From assembly GCA_020072815.1 (NCBI GenBank), contig JAIQGE010000005.1, forward strand, positions 186,001 through 250,000: a stretch of DNA of 64,000 bases. The letters run 5' to 3'. Every line of letters starts with the position of its first letter. Position 1 is the first letter of the stretch. The DNA comes from Terriglobia bacterium (GTDB lineage: Bacteria; Acidobacteriota; Terriglobia; Terriglobales; Acidobacteriaceae). Shown here piece by piece: positions 2,874-20,011 of the stretch. The translations under genes were made by a program, and so were the position numbers. Under the pieces are notes generated by a model, which saw only the letters and a list, made by a program, of their open reading frames with translations, did not search any database and was not told the DNA's origin.

Positions 2874-2889
2874 TGTGATGGCCATCACA
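2874..2889. promoter_or_regulatory. Exact TGTGA-N6-TCACA palindrome upstream of the Crp/Fnr regulator
   Basis: TGTGATGGCCATCACA is a perfect 16-bp palindrome, 72 bp before the start of the Crp/Fnr-family gene at 2961. It matches the recognition sequence expected from the RETVSR recognition helix of that protein, which suggests autoregulation. A TATAGG or TAGCCT element at about 2911-2921 could be the -10. Confidence 0.65.
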
Positions 2890-3759: not shown

Positions 3760-4245
3760 ATGGATTCCACAATTGTTGCAAAGGATGATGCTGTGAATGA
3801 CCTTTATGAAGGCCTGTCGGCGGAAGCGGTCGAAGAATTGAAAAAGCATGAACACTCCGCGATCGTCCCCAGCGGCGGCAAGCTGATTGAACATGGCGTC
3901 CTGCCGGAGAATTTGGTCATCGTCAACTCCGGCGCCGTGGACATTTCTGTTCCCGCTGCCGGAAGCCACGTCTCGCTGGGCTCTGCCGGTCCAGGCAAAG
4001 TCTTTGGTATGCGCGCGGTGATCGCCGGAGAGACCCCTGAGATCAACGTAACATGCCTGGACGAATGTTCGGTCACGCTGGTCCCCCGGAAAGAATTCAT
4101 GGCCATACTGCAAAAGTATCCCAACATCTACTTTGCCGTGGCCCGCGTGCTCAGCGCTGATCTGAAAATTGCCGACCGCCTTATTCGCGATTGCTCGCGC
4201 CGCCCGGTCCTGGTCAACCGTGCCAAGGTCGGACAACGGATGTGA
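3760..4245 (+). CDS. Stand-alone cyclic-nucleotide-binding-fold protein, no DNA-binding domain
   Basis: The 161-residue protein is a Crp-like beta-roll (GLSAEAVEELKKHEHSAIV, then GKLIEHGVLPENLVIVNSGAV) with a C-terminal helix ending IADRLIRDCSRRP. It stops where the helix-turn-helix of a Crp/Fnr protein would begin. It could bind a small ligand or modulate the full-length regulator encoded just upstream; this is inference. The start is uncertain: the ATG at 3760 has no ribosome-binding site and falls at the predicted transcription start (leaderless), whereas the in-frame GTG at 3793 follows AAAGGA by 7 nt and would give 150 residues. The stop codon overlaps the next operator palindrome. Confidence 0.8.
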   Translation: MDSTIVAKDDAVNDLYEGLSAEAVEELKKHEHSAIVPSGGKLIEHGVLPENLVIVNSGAVDISVPAAGSHVSLGSAGPGKVFGMRAVIAGETPEINVTCLDECSVTLVPRKEFMAILQKYPNIYFAVARVLSADLKIADRLIRDCSRRPVLVNRAKVGQRM

Positions 4246-4256
4246 CGATGGTCACA
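4241..4256. promoter_or_regulatory. Exact TGTGA-N6-TCACA palindrome overlapping the end of the CNB-only gene
   Basis: TGTGACGATGGTCACA contains the TGA stop of the preceding gene (4243-4245). No protein gene follows for about 470 bp, so the site most likely controls a non-coding transcript: a TGTAAA element (4288-4293) lies downstream, just before a run of three hairpins. Confidence 0.55.
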
Positions 4257-4719: not shown

Positions 4720-5733
4720 ATGCGAGGCCCGCTCATGCTGGGAAATACACACCTGAGGTATACCGGGGTTGCTGCTTTCGTACTGTTGCTGTTGGCATTG
4801 TGCTTTGCCGGAACCAGGCTACAGGCCAATGACAAGAGCGCCGGTGCGAAGGACCCAAGCAATCAAGGCGCTGATAAAGGCCATAATAAGAAAGCCCCCA
4901 AAGCGGAAACTGCGGTGGATCCTGCCCAATACGTAGGCGAGGAAACCTGCAAGACTTGCCATGAAGATCAGGCAAAAAGCTACGACCGAGGTCCCCACTG
5001 GAAAACAGCGCTGGACAAGAAACATGGCCCGGAGTGGCAGGGCTGCGAATCCTGCCATGGCCCAGGCAAGGCGCACGCCGAATCAGCCGACCCGGAGAAG
5101 ATCATCCACTTCGGCGGCCTGTCGCGGGAAGAGTCTTCCAAGCGATGCTTAAGCTGCCACGAGTTCGGCGAAGAGCACAGCAATTTTCTTCGTTCGCAGC
5201 ACCTCAAGAACAATGTGGGATGCGTGGATTGCCACTCCGTCCATTCGCCCAAGGTCAACCGGCAATTGCTGAAAGCCGCGCAGCCTGCTCTGTGCTACTC
5301 CTGCCACCAGGAAGTGAAGCCTGATTTCTCCAAGCCCTTCCACCATCGGGTGAATGAAGGCTTGGTCAATTGCACCAACTGCCACAACCAGCACGGCGGC
5401 TTCTTGTCTCGTCAATTGCGCTCCACCGCCGCCCAGGACCAGGTTTGCTTTAACTGCCACACTGACAAAGCAGGTCCCTTCGCCTGGGAGCACGCGCCCA
5501 TCAAGACTGAGGGCTGCGTCTCCTGCCATACGCCTCACGGCTCCAGCAATCCGCGTCTGCTCAAGCGCAGCAACGTAAATCTGCTTTGCCTGGAATGCCA
5601 CACGCTCACGGTGGATGCACCAGCTCCGGCGGCTCCCTCGTTCCATAACCAGGCCACGAAGTATCAAGCTTGCACTTTGTGCCACACAGCAATTCACGGT
5701 TCCAATTCAGACCGTGTGTTCTTCAAACCGTAA
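4720..5733 (+). CDS. DmsE/MtrA-type decaheme cytochrome c
   Basis: The 337-residue secreted protein has a hydrophobic signal segment (about 13-32) and then ten CxxCH heme motifs (CKTCH, CESCH, CLSCH, CVDCH, CYSCH, CTNCH, CFNCH, CVSCH, CLECH, CTLCH). Length, heme number and the porin gene 15 bp downstream match the MtrA/DmsE/PioA family, which sits inside an outer-membrane barrel and conducts electrons across the membrane. AGGAG lies only 2 nt before the ATG at 4720; the in-frame ATG at 4735 (GAGG 7 nt upstream) is an equally good start and leaves a cleaner signal peptide. It is the first gene of the operon, behind a predicted Crp/Fnr-activated promoter. Confidence 0.92.
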   Translation: MRGPLMLGNTHLRYTGVAAFVLLLLALCFAGTRLQANDKSAGAKDPSNQGADKGHNKKAPKAETAVDPAQYVGEETCKTCHEDQAKSYDRGPHWKTALDKKHGPEWQGCESCHGPGKAHAESADPEKIIHFGGLSREESSKRCLSCHEFGEEHSNFLRSQHLKNNVGCVDCHSVHSPKVNRQLLKAAQPALCYSCHQEVKPDFSKPFHHRVNEGLVNCTNCHNQHGGFLSRQLRSTAAQDQVCFNCHTDKAGPFAWEHAPIKTEGCVSCHTPHGSSNPRLLKRSNVNLLCLECHTLTVDAPAPAAPSFHNQATKYQACTLCHTAIHGSNSDRVFFKP

Positions 5734-5748
5734 AACGGAGGTGATGAG

Positions 5749-8295
5749 ATGAACAAAATTTTACACACGCTCGATATGTGGCCATCGCGCCTTCTGTTGA
5801 TCGGAATGGGACTGTTTGGCCTTACACTTTTCGCGCAGACGCCCGGTGACAGTGCGGCTGCCCCTGCTCCGCAGCACCAGACGGACAAGGACAAGGACAA
5901 AGACAAAGACAAGAAACCGGCCGCCAAGAAAGATGATTCCGGCCGCCAGCCTGATCTGGGCGTGGCCATTGATTCCGGCCGCAAGTCTGACGCGTTGGGC
6001 ACCTGGATCACTTCAGAGCACAACCAAGGCGAGACCGGCGGACCGTGGATCGTCAAGCAGTCCGTGGAATTCGGCGGACGTTTCTCTGACTTTACCGGCA
6101 ACACCGGCACCTGGGACACGTTCGTCAATCTAGGCACCGGCCCCCGCTTGATGGAGTACACGCTGGACCTGCATTCGCCCACCCACACCGGAAAGCTATT
6201 TGACGATCTTACCTTCAGCAACTTCGGCTACGGTGGCGATCCTAACAACGTCAGCCGCGTCCGCGCGCAGAAGGGCAAGCTTTACAGCTTCAGTGGCGGG
6301 TTCCGGCGCGACCAGAACATTTTCGATTACGATTTGCTTGCCAATCCGCTCAACCCGGCAACGTCTGTTCCGAACGTTCCGATCCTGCATTCGCCGCATG
6401 AGTTCCTGCTTACCCGCAGGATGAGCGACGCCAATCTCAATCTTTTTCCCGTCGGCAACGTCAGGTTCAAGCTGGGTTGGTCCCGGGTGGTGAACGAAGG
6501 CACCAGCTTCTCCACCGACCATCAGGGAACCGAGGGTTTGATTCAGCAACCGACCCTGAATACCACGGACAACTACAACTTCGGTGTCTCACTGCGCGTG
6601 ATTCCCCGCACCAACTTCAATTACGACCAGTTCTATACGTATTACAAAGGGGACACCACCGGGTTTCTGGCCTCTCCCGCCACCATGGGCCTTTTCGGCG
6701 TGCCGAGTTTCAGTCTGTCCAATGGCGTTCCTGTGAGTATTGGACTTCCATTTAATTCAGCTTCCAACCAGCCTTGCGCCGCGCCCATTTTTACAGGCGG
6801 CTTTGTCACTCCAACCTGCAACGCGTTCCTCAGCTACAACCGCGACGGCCGGAACCGCAACTCCTTCCCCACCGAGCAGTTCAGTTTTCAAAGCAATTAT
6901 TTCCGGCGCTTCGATTTCTCCGGAAGGCTGAACTATTCTGACGCGGAAGCCAGCACGCCTTCCACCAACGAATTGTTTAATGGACAGAAGAGCAATCGCT
7001 TCCGCGGGCTTGCGCTGACCGGCTCGGCTTTGACTCATCGCATTTCTGTGGCCGGCGATCTGGCCACCACCATCCGGGTGACCGACAAGCTCCGGATCGT
7101 GGATGCCTTCCGTTATGACGCGTTCCGCATCCCCGGGTTGTGGAACCTGGCCACCTTCAACGTTTTTGCGGTGAATATGCTGACCGCGCCCAATCTGTTC
7201 ACCCCGGCCACCTGCCCGCCGCCGTTTACGGCGGCCACCTGCCCGCAGCACGTGAGCGGCTCGGCGGCCGACGTTATTGTGGACCTCCGCAATGACTTCC
7301 TTGGCCAGAAGCGGACAGGCAACACGTTCCTTCTGGAATTCGACTTCACCAAGCGGATCTCGGCGCACGTCGGCTATCGCTTTGAGCGGCGGGAGATCAC
7401 CCAGCGGGTTGATGATGTCACGATCTCCACATTCTTCCCCGGCCCGACCGCGGCGCTCGCCAATCGCGGCGCCTGCTCTCCGGCGGCGTCACATCCGCTG
7501 AATCCTGACGGCACCTGCACGGCCATAGCCCAAGCTGCCGATGTCGGTGCAGACTTTACCCAGATCAACGGCCATACAGGACTGATCGGCTTCTCCGCGC
7601 GTCCCACGGACAAGCTCCGCATCAGTGCGGACGCCGAGTTGTTCTACGGAGACAATACCTTCTTCCGGGTAACGCCGCGTCATTCGCAGGACTACCGCTT
7701 CCGGGCCAGCTACAAGCCGAAGGATTGGATGAGCCTGGGTGCGGCCGTCCGCATTCTGGAAACCCGCAACACCACCGGTGACATCGGCGGCCTGGGTCAC
7801 AACCGCAGCTTTGGCTTCAGCGGCGCGTTCGCTCCTCCAGGTACCTGGTGGTCAGTGGACCTGTCTTACGACTACAACGACATCTACTCGCAGACCAACA
7901 TTTGCTTTGTGGCTGCGTCCAACTTCAACGTGCCCGGCCTGGTCGCCTGCGGAACGCCGTTCCTGTCCGGCATTTCAACCTATACTGACGTTTCACACTT
8001 CGCTTCCGCTTCCTTCCTTTTCAAGCCCGTCAGACGCTTCACCGCGGGTGTGGGATACGCCGTGACCAGTACCTCTGGCAATACCTTGATCTTGAACCCC
8101 ATTGCGCCCACCGGACCATTGGCGTCCAACTACCACCTGCCCACGGCTTCCGTGGCCTTTGAGGTGAACAAGGCCTTGACCTTGAAGTCCGGGTGGAACT
8201 ATTACGGCTACAATGAAAAGTCCGATCCTGGACCCACGTTACCGCGCGATTTCCGTGGCAATATGTTTACCGTGTCTTTGCGTTACACCATGTAA
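5749..8295 (+). CDS. MtrB/PioB-like outer-membrane beta-barrel (porin of a porin-cytochrome conduit)
   Basis: The 848-residue protein starts after GGAGGTGATGAG. It has a signal peptide ending near LTLFAQ (about 30), a charged Lys/Asp tract made of repeated KD pairs (about 45-55), then hundreds of residues of alternating polar and aromatic beta-strands, and ends in the strand-like FTVSLRYTM. Size and position directly after a decaheme cytochrome fit the MtrB/PioB family, the barrel that sheathes MtrA/PioA. The CxxC near the N terminus of Shewanella MtrB is not seen. No extracellular MtrC/OmcA-like cytochrome is present in the window. The assignment rests on context and fold pattern more than on residue identity. 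Confidence 0.8.
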   Translation: MNKILHTLDMWPSRLLLIGMGLFGLTLFAQTPGDSAAAPAPQHQTDKDKDKDKDKKPAAKKDDSGRQPDLGVAIDSGRKSDALGTWITSEHNQGETGGPWIVKQSVEFGGRFSDFTGNTGTWDTFVNLGTGPRLMEYTLDLHSPTHTGKLFDDLTFSNFGYGGDPNNVSRVRAQKGKLYSFSGGFRRDQNIFDYDLLANPLNPATSVPNVPILHSPHEFLLTRRMSDANLNLFPVGNVRFKLGWSRVVNEGTSFSTDHQGTEGLIQQPTLNTTDNYNFGVSLRVIPRTNFNYDQFYTYYKGDTTGFLASPATMGLFGVPSFSLSNGVPVSIGLPFNSASNQPCAAPIFTGGFVTPTCNAFLSYNRDGRNRNSFPTEQFSFQSNYFRRFDFSGRLNYSDAEASTPSTNELFNGQKSNRFRGLALTGSALTHRISVAGDLATTIRVTDKLRIVDAFRYDAFRIPGLWNLATFNVFAVNMLTAPNLFTPATCPPPFTAATCPQHVSGSAADVIVDLRNDFLGQKRTGNTFLLEFDFTKRISAHVGYRFERREITQRVDDVTISTFFPGPTAALANRGACSPAASHPLNPDGTCTAIAQAADVGADFTQINGHTGLIGFSARPTDKLRISADAELFYGDNTFFRVTPRHSQDYRFRASYKPKDWMSLGAAVRILETRNTTGDIGGLGHNRSFGFSGAFAPPGTWWSVDLSYDYNDIYSQTNICFVAASNFNVPGLVACGTPFLSGISTYTDVSHFASASFLFKPVRRFTAGVGYAVTSTSGNTLILNPIAPTGPLASNYHLPTASVAFEVNKALTLKSGWNYYGYNEKSDPGPTLPRDFRGNMFTVSLRYTM

Positions 8296-8325
8296 GTTAA
8301 ACTGAATCGCACTGGAGGAAGCGTA

Positions 8326-8634
8326 ATGAAAGCATTGATTGGCACGATGGCATTTGCGTTGGTGATGGCCCTGGCGGTCCCGGAGCAAGCCCAGGACGCC
8401 GCGGCGCTATACAAATCGAAATGCCAGATCTGCCATGGTCCTGACGGCGCGGGCAGCGCTGCCGGCAACAAACTGGGCGTGAAGAACCTGCAATCGCCCG
8501 AGGTCCAAAAACAGAGCGACGAGGAGCTTTTTGAAGTAGCCAAGAAGGGCAAGAACAAAATGCCGGCTTACGACAAGAAGCTCACTGATGATCAAATCAA
8601 GGGGCTGATCAAATTCATCCGTACCTTGAAGTAA
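8326..8634 (+). CDS. Small periplasmic monoheme cytochrome c
   Basis: A 102-residue class I-type cytochrome: signal peptide to about residue 23 (ending EQAQ), heme motif CQICH (about 33-37) with GPDGAGS after it, and the likely axial methionine in KNKMPAY (about 79). It is led by GGAGGAAG and lies 30 bp after the porin gene in the same unit. Proteins like this shuttle single electrons in the periplasm. Here it could link the bc-type complex encoded next with the decaheme conduit (inference). Confidence 0.9.
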   Translation: MKALIGTMAFALVMALAVPEQAQDAAALYKSKCQICHGPDGAGSAAGNKLGVKNLQSPEVQKQSDEELFEVAKKGKNKMPAYDKKLTDDQIKGLIKFIRTLK

Positions 8635-8679
8635 GGTTGGAAAAATCGGCAAGGCACTTTTTCTTTTGAGAGTAGACCG

Positions 8680-8715
8680 GCGGACCACGAACTGGATTTG
8701 TGGTCCGCGATTTTT
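8680..8715 (+). terminator. Rho-independent terminator after the conduit genes
   Basis: The stem GCGGACCAC (8680-8688) pairs with GTGGTCCGC (8700-8708), extended by two inner pairs, and is followed by ATTTTT. It separates the decaheme-porin-cytochrome unit from the Rieske/cytochrome b unit, so the second unit has its own promoter or depends on partial read-through. Confidence 0.8.
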
Positions 8716-8862
8716 GAGTAGCCAACGTGGGTCCCGGCCTTTAGTATGTCAGGGTTCGGCGCCACCGTGCTGCAACACCTGGAGCAGTTCCAGGGCTTCA
8801 AGCTTGCACAACCGCACAGCCGGGCCAGAAATCAATCTCATTCACGGGGGGCCGCAAGTGTT

Positions 8863-9339
8863 ATGAGCGATCAGGGCAACCAACCCGCTGTTCCGGGAGA
8901 CGCGCCAGTCCAGCGCAGACGCTTTGTGGAGGTGGTGCTGGGGAGCGGGTTCATGGCGACCGCCGCGGCTTTCATCTATCCTGTCCTGCGCTACCTGATT
9001 CCACCCCGCACCATTGACGTGGGCAGCGACTCGGTGGTGGCCGCGCGGGTGGGAGAGTTGAAGCCGAACAGCGGAAAGATCTTTCATTTCGGCAGCCGTC
9101 CTGGGCTGCTGGTCCTTACGGCGGATGGAGAATACCGCGCCATGTCCGCCACCTGTACCCATCTTTCCTGCATCGTGCAGTACCGGGCTGACCTGCGCGG
9201 ACCCTGGTGCGCCTGCCACAACGGAACTTATGACTTGAATGGCCGCAATGTCTCCGGTCCCCCGCCGCGTCCCCTGGAGTCGTTTGAAGTCCAGGTCCGC
9301 GGTGAGGAGGTCTTTGTGAGACGGCGGCGGGAAGCCTGA
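8863..9339 (+). CDS. Rieske [2Fe-2S] protein of a quinol-oxidising bc-type complex
   Basis: The 158-residue form starting [10 protein letters not shown] is preferred; the longer frame to 8746 adds residues that look non-coding and sit beside the terminator. A QRRRF twin-Arg-like motif (18-22) and one membrane helix (about 25-45) are followed by the Rieske fold. Cluster ligands are Cys98/His100 (CTHLSC) and Cys116/His119 (CACHNG), and Cys103 and Cys118 can form the usual disulfide. The protein transfers one electron from quinol to the c-type partner, here probably the nine-heme cytochrome two genes on. The next gene begins 1 nt after its stop. Confidence 0.93.
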
Positions 9340-9340
9340 G

Positions 9341-10420
9341 ATGAGCCCTGCAACTGTAGTGCGCAAATGGCTGGATGACCGCTTCAATTGGGACGACCTG
9401 CTGGCGCCGTTCCGCAAGAAAACGGTCCCGCTCCACCGGTTATCCTACTGGTATTTTCTGGGGGGCATCACGCTCTTTCTGTTTGTGGTCCAGGTGCTGA
9501 CCGGGATCCTGTTGTTGCTGTATTACCGCCCCGGACCCAATGAAGCTTTTGAGAGCGTCCAGTACATCATGACCCAGGTGAAATTCGGCTGGCTGATTCG
9601 CTCGATCCATTCATGGTCGGCCAACCTGATGGTCTTTACCGCGTTCGCCCACATGTTCAGCGTCTTCTTTCTCAAGGCGTACCGCAGACCCAGAGAGCTT
9701 ACCTGGCTCACCGGCATGGTCCTGCTGTTCCTGGTTCTGGGCTTCGGCTTCAGTGGTTACCTGCTGCCCTGGAACACGCTGGCTTTCTTCGCCACAAAAG
9801 TAGGAACGGAGATTACCGGCCAGGTGCCGCTCATCGGGAAGCCGCTGATGATTTTCCTGCGCGGCGGCGATGAAGTCACCGGCGCAACGCTGACCCGTTT
9901 CTTTGGATTTCACGTCGCCGTCCTGCCGGGCATTGCGACGCTTCTCGTCATGCTCCACCTGCTTCTGGTGCAGCGTCTGGGCATCAGCGTGCCGCCCAAG
10001 GTGGACGCGGAATGGATCGCCAATCCCAACGCGCGTCGCGAGATGAAGTTCTTTCCCAACTTTGCCCTGCGTGAAGCCATCGCCTGGTACATCGCGCTGG
10101 GCGTGCTGGGGGCACTGGCGGCGGTCTTCCCCTGGAACCTGGGGGTGAAGGCGGACCCGTTCATCTCAGCGCCCGCGGGCATCAAGCCGGAATGGTATTT
10201 CCTCTTCATGTTCCAGACCCTGAAGATGATTCCGTCGAAAGTGTGGTTCATTGACGGAGAGGTGCTGGGTGTTCTGGCGTTCGGGGCAGCTGGCGCGATT
10301 TGGATCCTGCTTCCGTTCTTGGAGAGGTCGGCGCGCTCCCGCAAATGGATCAGCGGCATCGGCATATTTGCTCTGGCTTACATCATAGGTATGACCATTT
10401 ATGGCTATATTGCAAAATAA
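9341..10420 (+). CDS. Cytochrome b (b6-type) of a bc complex
   Basis: The 359-residue integral membrane protein has about eight helices. Heme ligands are His90/His104 in the second helix and His191/His206 in the fourth; the 15-residue step of the second pair is that of cytochrome b6 rather than mitochondrial cytochrome b. The Qo-site signature PEWYF is at 283-287, so the b6-like and subunit-IV-like parts are joined in one chain. It oxidises menaquinol or another quinol together with the Rieske protein. It is translationally coupled on both sides: 1 nt after Rieske, and a 20-bp overlap with the multiheme gene. Confidence 0.95.
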
Positions 10421-11699
10421 GACGAGAGCTGTTCTCCGCTCTTCCTGGCTGCTGCTGGCGGGAGTCCTGCTAGTGTCCGTGGGCTTGGCCCGCGCGCAGG
10501 CCAACGCGCCGGCCAAAGACCAGTGTCTGGACTGCCACTCGATCTTGCCTGACAACCTGGGCGTGACGGAAGAGAAGTTCAGCCAGGACATCCACGCGCA
10601 AAAGGGCCTCACCTGCGCCTCATGCCACGGCGGCGACGCTACCAGCGACGATGCCGAGAAAGCCATGAGCCGCAAAGCCGGATTCAAGGGCCACATTAGC
10701 CGCAAGCAGATTCCGGAGCTGTGCGGAAGCTGCCATTCCAACCCGGACTTCATGCGCAAGTACAAACCCGGCCTGCGCACTGACCAACTGAGCCAATACC
10801 ATACCAGCGTGCACGGCAAACGCCTGGCCGCGGGCGATACCAACGTTGCCGTTTGCACGGATTGCCACAGCGTGCATGATCTGCGGCCGCCCAGCGACTC
10901 GCGGTCAACGGTGAATGCCGCAAACGTGGCCAAGACCTGCTCGCGCTGCCACTCGGACGCGGCGCGCATGAAGGACTACAAGATCCCCACCAGCCAGTTT
11001 GCCGATTACAGCAAGAGCGTCCACTATGAGGCATTGACGGTGCGCGGCGATCTGAGCGCGCCCAACTGCGCCACTTGTCACGGCAATCACGGTGCAACGC
11101 CGCCGGGCGCCTCTTCCGTGGTCAACGTCTGTTCCACCTGCCACGTGTTCCAGGCGCAGCTTTTTGATGAGAGCCCCCACAAGCAGCCCTTTACCTCAGC
11201 TGGCCTGCCCGGCTGCGTGACTTGCCACAGCAACCACAACATCCAGCATCCCACCGATGCGTTTATCGGGACCGGCGATGAGGCGGTGTGCACACAATGT
11301 CATGTGCAGGGCGACGCGGGGTTTGAAGCTGCGGGCAAAATCAAGAGCGATCTAACGCACCTGGCGCAATCGGTTGACCAGGCAGACCAGATTCTGAGTC
11401 AGGCCGAACAATCGGGAATGGAAGTCACTGACGCCAAGGGTGACCTGGTGCAAACCAAGGACGCGCTTACCAAGGCGCGCGTGTCCATCCATAGTTTCCG
11501 TGTGGAACGCGTGGAGGCAGACATCAAGCCGGGTTTGGCAGGTGCGGAAAAGGATTACCGCGCGGGCCAGGAAGCTCTCAAAGAGAGGAACTTCCGGCGG
11601 ATGGGACTGGGGCTCTCGCTGATCGCCATCGCCATTGTGGTGGCCGGCCTCTTGCTGTATCTCAGACAGATTGAGAGCGGAAAACCGACGACCGCCTAG
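10401..11699 (+). CDS. Membrane-anchored nine-heme cytochrome c of the bc complex
   Basis: The 432-residue protein has a signal peptide or anchor (about 12-33) and nine CxxCH motifs: CLDCH, CASCH, CGSCH, CTDCH, CSRCH, CATCH, CSTCH, CVTCH, CTQCH. A helical region without hemes follows (about 310-400), then a C-terminal membrane helix (about 403-422). It overlaps the cytochrome b gene and takes the place of cytochrome c1, as in the Cbc-type complexes of metal-reducing bacteria. Electrons would pass from the Rieske centre through its heme chain to periplasmic carriers (inference). Its end faces the convergent gene at 11739 without a clear terminator. Confidence 0.9.
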
Positions 11700-16822: not shown

Positions 16823-19800
16823 ATGATGACGGACAAAACGAAACTCGCTGGCAGCTTGCAAAGCGCCCACCGCGATCTTCAGAATTTCGCAACAACCAAC
16901 CTTCCCAAACGGGGAAGCGCAACGAAGCGGCTTTTGAGCATCGTGCTGCTCAGCTTGATCGCCATGGCCGCCACCGCCTGGGCCCAGTTGCCGATTCCAG
17001 CTTCTTCACAGTTTGATGTCACCGGCTTTATCCAGTCGGCCACGCTAGGCGGGCCCGGCACCGGCGCCGGCGCTGGCGCGCACCAGGGCGGCAACATCAC
17101 CGTCAACGGCCACCTGATCACCGTGCCGTCGGAGACCATTGTCATCCTGCCCGCAAACGCCCTGACCTGGCAGGAGCTTTTTGCTTTGGCGCCCGCGCCT
17201 TACGGCCCCACCCAGACAGGCATGGCCCTGTCTGATCTTCCCGCGCCGCTTACCACGTATGAGGCGCAGGTAGTGGGCAATCGCGTGCTTGGCGGCCCCG
17301 GAGGCCCGGATGTCTATATCGCCGGGCTGATTTTCATTTCCCAGCACAGCCTGAATTCCGGCAACGGGTTTATCAACTGCATTAACCACGCCACCGGCGA
17401 AATGCGTGTGGGCGGAGTCATCGGTAATTGCGCGACCGGCGCTCGCGTACAAATCAACGATCCAGTTGGCCGATTTGGCCGTGTAATGTCACCCGACGCG
17501 CGCTTCTCGGTGGACGACGCCAACCCGACCATCGCCGCCGCCACCGGCTTCCCCATGTGTCTCCCGCGCGTCCTGGCGGACCCGTCAATCCCTGGCAACC
17601 CCGACGACGGCTTGTGCCCGCTGGCACAGAGACCCATCGCGGTCGCGCCGGCGGTTGGCTTCGCTACAGTCATTCAAATGAATGATCCAGTCGCCCTTGC
17701 CGGAGTGCCTCCCGATGCAACCATCCAGGCGCCGATGCAAGTTGGCGACTGGGTTACCTTTGCTGGAACATTGGTCGCCGATCCCGGCGTTACCGCTGGC
17801 CCCACGGCTGGTCCGTGGCCGGGCATTGCTAACACTTACATCTCGGCCCACACCATCAGCAGCAACGTCGCCATCTATACATGGCCGAACTCGAACCCGT
17901 CGTACGTGGCCACTGAAGTCGCACTCATCGGCACCGGCGGGCTGACGGTTGTTGGCGCCGGCGAGGCCGTGATCCGCACGCGCTTTGAGGGCATGACCAC
18001 GGACGTGAACCCCAATCCTGCCTTGCAGCGTAAGATCCACCTTTACGGCATTGATTACGCTCCCATCACCGGCACGCCCAGCGACCGCGACTTTGGCACG
18101 ATCGGCGTGGATCCGGGGCCGCCACTCGGAGCTGTCAAAGGCCGCTGGCGCTTCCGTCCGCCATGCGATCCCTTCGGGAGCGTTCCAGCCAAACCCGACA
18201 AGACTTGCGTGATGAACGCTGCCGGCAGCTTCCTGCCGCCGCCGCGCGAAGTACGAGCGGTGATTGAAGGCGCCTGGGTGCCTGGACAAGTTACCACCTT
18301 CGCGAACGGGATCATCGCCGGGCAGTATCACGCTCCCATCCTGGAGTACATCTTCCCGGAGAACGTTCCTGGCGCCCCGATTCCGGAGAACAACTTCAAT
18401 ACCATCCCCTTCCTGGCGCAGGGCGGGTACAGCTCGTCCACGGGAACCATTGCGGGGCAGCTCGATCCCTGGCCCAGCAACATCACTCCGATTCCGGCCT
18501 GCGCGCCTCCAGCGGCGAACGCCGGCGGTCCCTACGCAGTTGCCTCGAGCGGAACCGTGGGGCTAATCGGCACGTCAGCGGGGACGGGTCCCTTTACTTG
18601 GGCCTGGACTGCATCGGCGGGCACTCTGTCCGATCCGACGCTGCAATCGCCCAACTTCACGGCGCCTGCGGTTGCCGTGGCAACTTCCGTCAACTTGACG
18701 CTCACCGTGACCAATAGCTGCGGAGCCAGCACGGCCACCAGCACCGTAGCGGTCAGCGCAGCGTTAGCGCCCACCGTCAACGCCATCGCACCTCAAGCTG
18801 TGGATTCCGGTTCGTCTGGCAGCTTCGCGGTTAGCGGCACGGATTCCAATAACCCAGCGTCTCTGCCCCTCACCTGGACGGTGTCGCAGAGTGGCGCACC
18901 CGCTCTCACCGGTCTTTCCATTTCCCCAACTGGTTCCAGCGCGGCAGCAGTGAATTACACCGCGCCATCCGGTGTGCTTACCGTTACCAACATCACAGTT
19001 ACGGTAACCGCGACCAACGCCGCAGGTGTCGCCTCGGCGCCGGTTTCCACCACTGTCACCATCAATCCGGTGGTTGCGGGTTGTGTGGCGCCAGTTGCTA
19101 ATGCCGGTGGTCCTTACTCCGTCAACTCCGGCGGCTCGGTCTCACTGGCCGGCAGCGCTTCCGGGACAACGCCGATCACGTTTAGCTGGGCGCCGCCTGC
19201 CTCGGGCAGCATTGCTCCGCTGAATAGCGCCGCGGCAACCTTCACCGCTCCTGTGGTGCTTGCGCAGACCCTGGTGAACGTGTCCCTGACCGCCTCCAAC
19301 AGCTGCGGCACCTCTACCGCCAGCTCAACGGTTACGGTGAACGCCGCTCTGGCTCCCACGGCCAACGCTGTGGCGCCGAAGACGGTGTTCTCGGGCGCGA
19401 TCAATCAGACCGTTCTGCTGAGCGGTTCTGATCCCAACGTTCCGGCGCTTACGCCGCTTACCTTCACCGTGACTCAGGCCCCGGCGGGAACGCTGCTCGG
19501 CCTCACGGTGACGCCAACCAGCGCCACCACGGCGACTGTCAGCTTTAACGCTCCAGTGCTGCCGATTGGCCAGGTTGCCCCCACGGTGGTCACACTGACC
19601 ATCACGGCGAGGAACACGGCTCCGCTAACTTCAGCGCCGGTAACCACCACGGTCACCATCAACCCGCTGCCCGACCTGATCACCGTGACGGCTGCGGAAT
19701 ACCGTACCGGCAAACAGCGGCTGATTCTGACAGCAACCTCGTCAGTCAACAGCGCGAATGTGGTGTTGAAACTGCAACCGTACCTCACCACTACGGGGAC

Positions 19801-20011
19801 CATTTATAATCCCGATCCCGCAGCAGGCGGAGTCGGCAACACGTTCACCCTGGCGGCAGGCGTCTACACCCTTGATGTGGTTGGAGCTCCGCGACCAGCC
19901 TGCGGCAACGCGGCGGGTTATCAAACGCCGTGTCCGACAGCGCCGCTGGATGTCAGGTCCAACCTGAACGGCGATAGCGGCCTGTTCGCCTTGACCAAGA
20001 TCCGGCAATAG
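16823..20011 (+). CDS. Large secreted protein with Ig/PKD-like repeats
   Basis: The 1062-residue protein has an unusually long N-region before a signal helix (about 35-54, ending ATAWAQ). The first half (about 60-560) is Gly/Pro/Thr-rich and unassigned. From about 565 there are repeated beta-sandwich units opening with CxxPxANAGGPY (positions about 562 and 756) and containing SCGxSTAxSTVTV, typical of PKD/Ig-like extracellular domains; a similar unit follows each. The C-terminal part (from about 950, ITVTAAEYRTGKQRLILTATSS) is another beta domain. It is likely exported to the envelope or surface; substrate unknown. The start could be either ATG of the pair at 16823/16826; no good ribosome-binding site is seen. 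Confidence 0.8.
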   Translation: MMTDKTKLAGSLQSAHRDLQNFATTNLPKRGSATKRLLSIVLLSLIAMAATAWAQLPIPASSQFDVTGFIQSATLGGPGTGAGAGAHQGGNITVNGHLITVPSETIVILPANALTWQELFALAPAPYGPTQTGMALSDLPAPLTTYEAQVVGNRVLGGPGGPDVYIAGLIFISQHSLNSGNGFINCINHATGEMRVGGVIGNCATGARVQINDPVGRFGRVMSPDARFSVDDANPTIAAATGFPMCLPRVLADPSIPGNPDDGLCPLAQRPIAVAPAVGFATVIQMNDPVALAGVPPDATIQAPMQVGDWVTFAGTLVADPGVTAGPTAGPWPGIANTYISAHTISSNVAIYTWPNSNPSYVATEVALIGTGGLTVVGAGEAVIRTRFEGMTTDVNPNPALQRKIHLYGIDYAPITGTPSDRDFGTIGVDPGPPLGAVKGRWRFRPPCDPFGSVPAKPDKTCVMNAAGSFLPPPREVRAVIEGAWVPGQVTTFANGIIAGQYHAPILEYIFPENVPGAPIPENNFNTIPFLAQGGYSSSTGTIAGQLDPWPSNITPIPACAPPAANAGGPYAVASSGTVGLIGTSAGTGPFTWAWTASAGTLSDPTLQSPNFTAPAVAVATSVNLTLTVTNSCGASTATSTVAVSAALAPTVNAIAPQAVDSGSSGSFAVSGTDSNNPASLPLTWTVSQSGAPALTGLSISPTGSSAAAVNYTAPSGVLTVTNITVTVTATNAAGVASAPVSTTVTINPVVAGCVAPVANAGGPYSVNSGGSVSLAGSASGTTPITFSWAPPASGSIAPLNSAAATFTAPVVLAQTLVNVSLTASNSCGTSTASSTVTVNAALAPTANAVAPKTVFSGAINQTVLLSGSDPNVPALTPLTFTVTQAPAGTLLGLTVTPTSATTATVSFNAPVLPIGQVAPTVVTLTITARNTAPLTSAPVTTTVTINPLPDLITVTAAEYRTGKQRLILTATSSVNSANVVLKLQPYLTTTGTIYNPDPAAGGVGNTFTLAAGVYTLDVVGAPRPACGNAAGYQTPCPTAPLDVRSNLNGDSGLFALTKIRQ

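Follow-up and report, generated by a model that had tools for sequence, protein, structure and literature searches.

A decaheme cytochrome and a predicted MtrB-type barrel encoded beside a Rieske/cytochrome b gene triad in an acidobacterial genome

Introduction

Can a Rieske/cytochrome b complex feed an electron conduit through the outer membrane? The question is raised by six genes in a 64-kb stretch (the window) of the 5.29-Mb genome of a Terriglobia bacterium (contig JAIQGE010000005.1, positions 186,001 to 250,000). In this order they encode a decaheme cytochrome (DEC), a barrel (BAR), a monoheme cytochrome (MONO), a Rieske protein, a cytochrome b (CYB) and a nine-heme cytochrome (NONA), the last three forming what we call the triad. 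We propose, with a probability of roughly 0.55, that DEC and BAR form an Mtr/Pio-type two-protein conduit with MONO as shuttle, beside a quinol:cytochrome oxidoreductase, and that electrons flow outward. Little is known of the anaerobic physiology of Acidobacteriota, which are common in soil. The locus makes it possible to test whether a Rieske/cytochrome b complex can serve electron transfer to the outside of the cell.

Papers cited by PMC number are represented here, unless said otherwise, by portions of their text. A 2013 paper points out MtrA/DmsE decahemes in Acidobacteria (PMC3669403), one of 2020 describes a likely porin-cytochrome complex of Holophaga (PMC7399161), and one of 2023 reports PioA, PioB and PioC homologues in Acidobacteria (PMC10654088). 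No report of the present combination was found in the portions of open-licence literature covered, and those of PMC4245776, PMC9386147, PMC8100337 and PMC6896113 hold nothing on it.

Results

The six open reading frames (ORFs; Table 1) were found again as a sequence-only reading of the window had placed them, all on the plus strand and with the same ends. They comprise 337, 848, 102, 197, 359 and 432 amino acids (aa) and contain 10, 0, 1, 0, 0 and 9 CxxCH motifs, respectively, so that the noted heme counts of 10, 1 and 9 hold. Spacings are 15 nucleotides (nt) between DEC and BAR, 30 nt between BAR and MONO, 111 nt from MONO to a Rieske start at 8746 and 1 nt between Rieske gene and CYB, while CYB and NONA overlap by 20 nt.

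DEC belongs to the DmsE family (TIGR03508, 257.5 bits at a curated cut-off of 192.2), and its residues 72-330 match chain A of PDB 6r2q (E 1.4e-37), which we take to be MtrA; the molecule name in the record differs. Together with the ten CxxCH motifs this bears out its description as a DmsE/MtrA-like cytochrome. For BAR, called an MtrB/PioB-like barrel before, fold and distant homology stood up, membership of the Pfam family did not. BAR has no Pfam match even at E 10, PF11854 (MtrB/PioB) matches nothing in the whole genome, TIGR03509 does not match BAR at E 1, the sole NCBIfam match is weak (E 0.004), and a PDB search with the BAR alignment profile gave nothing at E ≤ 1. Among 61 aligned BAR relatives, PF11854 reaches 10 at E ≤ 0.1 (best 3.7e-4) and TIGR03509 four (best 0.0073). 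Profile-profile comparison (hhalign), however, aligned BAR to MtrB/PioB with 99.8% probability over 598 columns, compared to 70% for a TonB control and 10-15% for reversed controls. The predicted model, of low confidence at residues 1-91, has about 26 strands between residues 100 and 847 and the fold of a 26-stranded MtrB-type barrel. Foldseek placed MtrB clearly first and also listed many TonB receptors, from E 8.2e-11 on. By these profile and model comparisons BAR is a distant MtrB/PioB homologue outside the Pfam family as drawn. The sequence-only reading had allowed that BAR might match TonB receptors or unrelated barrels only; profile and fold favour MtrB, Pfam finds neither TonB plug nor TonB barrel domains in BAR, and in view of the hhalign controls a TonB receptor was rejected.

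DEC lies immediately 5' of BAR in 58 of 60 sampled BAR loci (from 55 genomes; 8 of the 64 genomes with BAR were left out). Of the other two, L044 and L083, one is cut by a contig end and one has DEC on the opposite side. In a quick decaheme tree of 77 rows, with nine long branches flagged, a single branch with support 100 splits 69 decahemes partnered by BAR from 8 partnered by canonical MtrB, as expected for matched partners. Of the 396 genomes of the phylum that were sampled, 64 have relatives of BAR, a divergent MtrB-type barrel that Pfam misses in the window genome, and 90 have canonical MtrB/PioB matches; the canonical alignment comprised 18 of 20 sampled loci, L285 (an ORF on the wrong strand) and L287 (like L286) being left out.

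In the Rieske protein the cluster motifs CTHLxC and CACHxG are invariant in 13 rows, and one hydrophobic segment follows an invariant RRxF. Translation probably starts at codon 8863 instead of at 8746, since this RRxF lies just past it and the ORFs of 12 aligned relatives span 145-203 aa. The b-haem His pairs of CYB (90/104 and 191/206) are invariant in 14 rows, with PEWY at 283; their 13/14 spacing is presumably of the b6 type, and cytochrome b6 is the best PDB profile match. The third gene encodes not a cytochrome c1 or f but NONA, of the multiheme c3/c7 type (Pfam), whose nine CxxCH motifs are all invariant in 13 rows. NONA matches, some partial, occur in 79 of the 396 genomes at E ≤ 1e-30. 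The closest cytochromes b (up to 81% identity) come from metagenome-assembled genomes labelled Acidobacteriaceae and Candidatus Acidiferrum. Among named loci, the best 80 of at least 583 relatives, related cytochromes b (55-81% identical to CYB) are found in Acidobacteriota, Ignavibacteria, Bacteroidetes, KSB1, Calditrichaeota, Zixibacteria, Marinimicrobia and others. Most of these loci have the same triad, mostly with 9 or 11 hemes, but in only 11 of the 80 does the examined stretch include a conduit pair, as it does in the window. In some lineages (L145, at 8259-11225, and L140, L141, L144 and L147), cytochrome b and multiheme part appear to share one ORF of about 950-1380 aa.

Conduit and triad recur together far above chance in other Acidobacteriota, where the earlier reading had left room for their never co-occurring. 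BAR and NONA are both present in 25 of the 396 genomes and are neighbours, 0.5-2.8 kb apart, in 8 of these, compared to about 0.1 of 25 by chance (binomial 7e-14 at 0.4%, a nominal value since some of the 25 genomes are related). Of 138 triad loci, 25 have a decaheme-barrel pair in the examined stretch (26 with L124, missed by the pairing rule), a lower bound due to some short stretches; this set was partly chosen for BAR, so the per-genome count is fairer. L183, L196, L230 and L208 look like duplicates of L049, L058, L072 and L095 and still count among the 138 loci and the 72 MONO homologues below. An assembly accident was rejected as the origin of the joined order, as the same six gene kinds stand together in L167 and L173. 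The order varies: DEC-BAR-MONO-triad in the window, in L067 and, with two MONO, in L052; DEC-BAR-triad-MONO in L173; triad-DEC-BAR-MONO in L167; divergent in L169 and L171. Canonical-MtrB conduits adjoin a like triad (third ORF with 7-11 CxxCH) in L124, L135, L136 and L149. The sequence-only reading had taken gene order itself to sketch the electron route; order, however, gives no direction of flow and differs among relatives. On a quick cytochrome b tree (126 rows, 22 joined; ORFs outside 300-430 aa and four duplicate contigs excluded) accounting for the joined state takes 15 changes, of which at least 9 fall on starred branches, and on the decaheme tree (23 of 77 rows joined) 13 changes, of which at least 10 do so. 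Linkage was therefore gained or lost many times.

The inner-membrane partner of the conduit is exchanged even among relatives of the same family. After BAR/MONO, 3 of 18 own-family conduit loci have a second Rieske gene with a cytochrome b of 487-491 aa (one CxxCH) and 8 have a NapC/NrfH-like pentaheme (in L044 it follows an 11-heme protein and is truncated where the contig ends); the remaining 7 have neither module. The window genome has its own pentaheme on contig C7, which exceeds the cut-off of PF03264 but not that of the NrfH model; its identity to the pentahemes 3' of MONO in these loci is 42-46%. Of 72 MONO homologues, 20 have BAR alone as a neighbour, 20 a Rieske gene alone and 5 both, which leaves 27 with neither. 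Occurring with each module alone or with both, MONO appears as a natural carrier between them, and we infer from these neighbourhoods that it may carry electrons between conduit and triad. DEC-BAR-MONO might even be a standard socket that accepts as plugs the nine-heme Rieske/cytochrome b complex, the other cytochrome b complex or a pentaheme dehydrogenase, of which the first would drive a Q-cycle; we put this forward tentatively, as a possibility with the odds somewhat against it. If it holds, extracellular respiration via the nine-heme complex would conserve energy at the quinol-oxidising step, a feature not known from the established CymA/ImcH-type routes.

A terminator-like hairpin between MONO and the Rieske gene has a 12-bp stem followed by a T-rich run (-20.9 kcal/mol, z -3.67). 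A comparable hairpin occurs in the barrel-Rieske gap of 1 of 16 other joined loci scanned and in 4 of 200 control windows. Joined relatives with a short gap free of such a hairpin are L173 (68 nt), L070 (88 nt), L049 (159 nt) and L124 (3-nt overlap). The Crp-type palindrome TGTGA-N6-TCACA occurs in perfect form at 34 places in the genome, its reversed control pattern at one; three perfect copies lie within 1.8 kb 5' of DEC. Between -400 and +60 nt relative to the DEC start, a perfect site is present in 13 of 59 loci, one with at most one mismatch in 22 and one with at most two in 30 (control 0, 1 and 9). Among the loci with a CRP homologue 5' of DEC and in the same orientation are L049, L070, L076, L081, L082, L084, L087 and L089. 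No Crp-type site was found for the window triad; across loci, 5 of 133 Rieske genes have a perfect site and 9 one with at most one mismatch (control 0 and 0). Because of the terminator-like hairpin and the triad's lack of a Crp-type site, conduit and triad are likely separate transcription units in the window genome; a simple one-operon arrangement was rejected there because of the hairpin.

Other Crp-type sites of the genome precede genes for acetyl-CoA synthetase, the [NiFe]-hydrogenase small subunit, the C7 pentaheme and two MONO paralogues. Most of the remainder precede genes that, judged by eye, have no tie to electron transfer or no known role; a few are located within ORFs. As far as these DNA sites go, a Crp-type link of the conduit to hydrogenase and acetate genes is possible. 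The hydrogenase small subunit (TIGR00391) and hyp genes with Crp-type sites are located in L272 (G000:C29), and hyp/hydrogenase-like genes, recognised by eye, adjoin DEC-BAR in three own-family relatives (L043, L045, L038).

That the window holds no MtrC-like cytochrome was confirmed: among the remaining ORFs of the window, down to a length of 70 aa, none contains more than one CxxCH motif, and the OmcA/MtrC model TIGR03507 has no match over cut-off in the whole genome, the best (27.8 bits) being NONA itself. Ten-heme proteins of 667-822 aa lie near the conduit in 10 of 60 loci (L053, L055, L057, L058, L063, L075, L085, L086, L088, L090), and all four tested of these ten belong to the OmcA/MtrC family. 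This fits the earlier suggestion that the last step in the window genome differs or is encoded elsewhere.

Two haem-copper oxidases over cut-off (in L243 and L244) and a weak third match were found in the genome. The one in L243 adjoins an alternative-complex-III-like cluster (COX1 and a molybdopterin-type subunit by profile, the rest by eye), so that the triad need not serve oxygen respiration. The genome has two further cytochrome b genes; given these other candidates for quinol oxidation the triad is not the sole one.

Table 1. Positions of the six genes and of nearby features in the window
Feature	Position	Strand	Basis
Crp-type palindrome TGTGA-N6-TCACA, 5' of CRP gene	2874..2889	no strand	pattern search
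CRP, Crp/Fnr-family regulator, 242 aa	2961..3689	+	Pfam cNMP_binding and HTH_Crp_2
cNMP-binding-domain protein without HTH match, 161 aa	3760..4245	+	Pfam cNMP_binding alone over cut-off
Crp-type palindrome, overlaps 3' end of cNMP ORF	4241..4256	no strand	pattern search
Crp-type palindrome, centre about 64 nt 5' of DEC start codon	4648..4663	no strand	pattern search
DEC, DmsE/MtrA-family decaheme cytochrome, N-terminal hydrophobic (signal) segment	4720..5733	+	CxxCH count, TIGR03508, PDB 6r2q_A
BAR, outer-membrane barrel of predicted MtrB fold	5749..8295	+	profile and fold comparison
MONO, small monoheme cytochrome c, N-terminal hydrophobic segment	8326..8634	+	1 CxxCH; PF13442 (cytochrome_CBB3, c6-like) E 4e-16
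Intrinsic-terminator-like hairpin, between conduit and bc genes	8680..8708	+	sequence scan and fold energy
Rieske [2Fe-2S] protein, likely start 8863	8746..9339	+	PF00355 E 2.9e-10
CYB, b6-type cytochrome b and partial subunit-IV part, PEWY	9341..10420	+	PF00033 E 4.3e-54, PF00032 E 4e-12
NONA, nine-heme cytochrome, C-terminal hydrophobic segment 398-416	10401..11699	+	9 CxxCH; hydropathy

Discussion

In the outward conduit that we favour, the triad would oxidise quinol, coupled to proton movement, and electrons would pass from NONA to MONO and on to DEC. DEC would sit inside or against the barrel BAR as part of a physical complex crossing the outer membrane. Fe(III) or humic-type oxidants would be plausible acceptors for this phylum.

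A DmsE/MtrA-family decaheme adjoining a barrel of MtrB fold, predicted in the case of BAR, is likewise found in MtrAB of Shewanella (PDB 6r2q) and in PioAB/MtoAB. The window locus differs from these in that BAR is beyond reach of the Pfam and NCBIfam MtrB models, and in having a monoheme carrier and a Rieske/cytochrome b triad, not MtrC, HiPIP or CymA. PioAB/MtoAB loci lack MtrC, as does the window locus. GSU2203 and GSU2204 of Geobacter sulfurreducens are also a decaheme, named OmcK (PMC4070692), and an MtrB/PioB-type barrel, listed in that family in a 2026 review (PMC13188914). The GSU2204 model matches 37 of the 61 BAR rows at E ≤ 0.1 (best 2.3e-9), but the window proteins stay below the curated cut-offs of both models (NF041028, 230.3 of 325 bits; NF041027, 16 of 350 bits), and, in contrast to the Geobacter pair, BAR itself has no CxxCH.

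The sequence-only reading had taken conduit and bc complex to be usually encoded apart. This stands for the Rieske/cytochrome b triad, but quinol dehydrogenases encoded next to a conduit are known, and so is the ext cluster. Some bacteria have CymA or MtoC/MtrH genes adjoining mtrAB-type genes (PMC6295460). The same paper counts ImcH homologues in Acidobacteria; the terms "Rieske" and "bc1" are absent from its text. Unlike the triad, CymA, MtoC/MtrH and ImcH are not Rieske/cytochrome b complexes. The extHIJKLMNOPQS cluster of Geobacteraceae combines a porin-like protein, Rieske protein, cytochrome b and multihemes (PMC5877670), the last three also being described in PMC2825233. Its porin-like ExtI, of 45 kDa and with weak similarity to phosphate-selective porins, and its ExtP, a 23-kDa cytochrome b (PMC5877670), differ from BAR and CYB, and the 10-heme ExtN has its own family model, in which DEC reaches 17 bits at a cut-off of 200.

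Several results weigh against the outward conduit fed by the triad. The triad mostly lacks a nearby conduit, the terminator-like hairpin may separate transcription of the two halves, and Crp-type sites precede DEC but not the window triad. No OmcA/MtrC exceeds the cut-off in the genome, and 27 of 72 MONO homologues stand beside neither module. In the own-family relatives G073, G121, G257 and G382, NONA lies away from the conduit (in G121 by about 13 kb), and a model of an in-frame DEC-BAR fusion (17 rows) reached a pLDDT of 59.5, too low to judge the complex.

By analogy with PioAB/MtoAB, the conduit could instead point inward: extracellular Fe(II) or a solid donor would deliver electrons via DEC-BAR, MONO would pass them to an oxidase, and the triad would run in reverse to reduce quinone. 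The haem-copper oxidases and the missing OmcA/MtrC would suit such a route, PioA/PioB/PioC homologues are reported to be widespread in Proteobacteria and Acidobacteria, and the bc1 complex is part of the Acidithiobacillus iron pathway (both PMC10654088, the latter in a table). We nevertheless regard it as rather unlikely. In own-family relatives the same slot is taken by a NapC/NrfH-like pentaheme, and proteins of this type are known to oxidise quinol; other relatives carry OmcA/MtrC beside the conduit. Both features are typical of outward flow; moreover, no HiPIP or rusticyanin-like gene was seen beside the conduit, by eye only and with no profile search.

Conduit and triad could also be two independent modules that genome history has made neighbours, with a Crp-controlled conduit fed by another quinol dehydrogenase such as the C7 pentaheme, and the triad as a general menaquinol:cytochrome c reductase. 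The hairpin between the halves and the many triads without a conduit point this way, as do the Crp-type sites 5' of both DEC and the C7 pentaheme and the likeness of that pentaheme to those following MONO in own-family loci. However, linkage recurs in several families, in different orders and with either type of barrel, several joined relatives (L173, L070, L049, L124) have a short barrel-Rieske gap without such a hairpin, and MONO homologues associate with each module; we therefore regard independence, too, as rather unlikely. That no conduit exists, with BAR a large porin of the ordinary kind or a receptor of the TonB type and DEC free in the periplasm, would agree with the poor Pfam, NCBIfam and PDB sequence matches of BAR and with the TonB receptors in the Foldseek list, but is hardly credible given the first rank of MtrB in controlled profile and fold comparisons, the lack of TonB domains and the DmsE-type partner in 58 of 60 loci.

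Additional observations

Another group of genes in the genome (L241:3394-20000, G000:C12) resembles an ext-type conduit-plus-bc cluster. It has cytochromes with 7, 4 and 11 hemes around a 628-aa barrel-like protein without family match, followed by an FAD oxidoreductase, a Rieske protein, a split b6/subunit IV and a six-CxxCH protein, inside which the stretch ends. One barrel-like protein of the genome besides BAR, at L241:6254-8137, is unrelated to it and matches no BAR, MtrB or TonB profile. In L242 (G000:C3), a Rieske protein and cytochrome b are encoded close to an iron-sulfur subunit that resembles the DMSO-reductase type II one but scores below cut-off, perhaps a further bc-type complex tied to a molybdoenzyme.

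A large secreted protein is encoded at 16823-20011 of the window. Its paralogues in L250 and L265 share the start LPIPASSQFDxTGF, and two paralogues are preceded by Crp-type sites.

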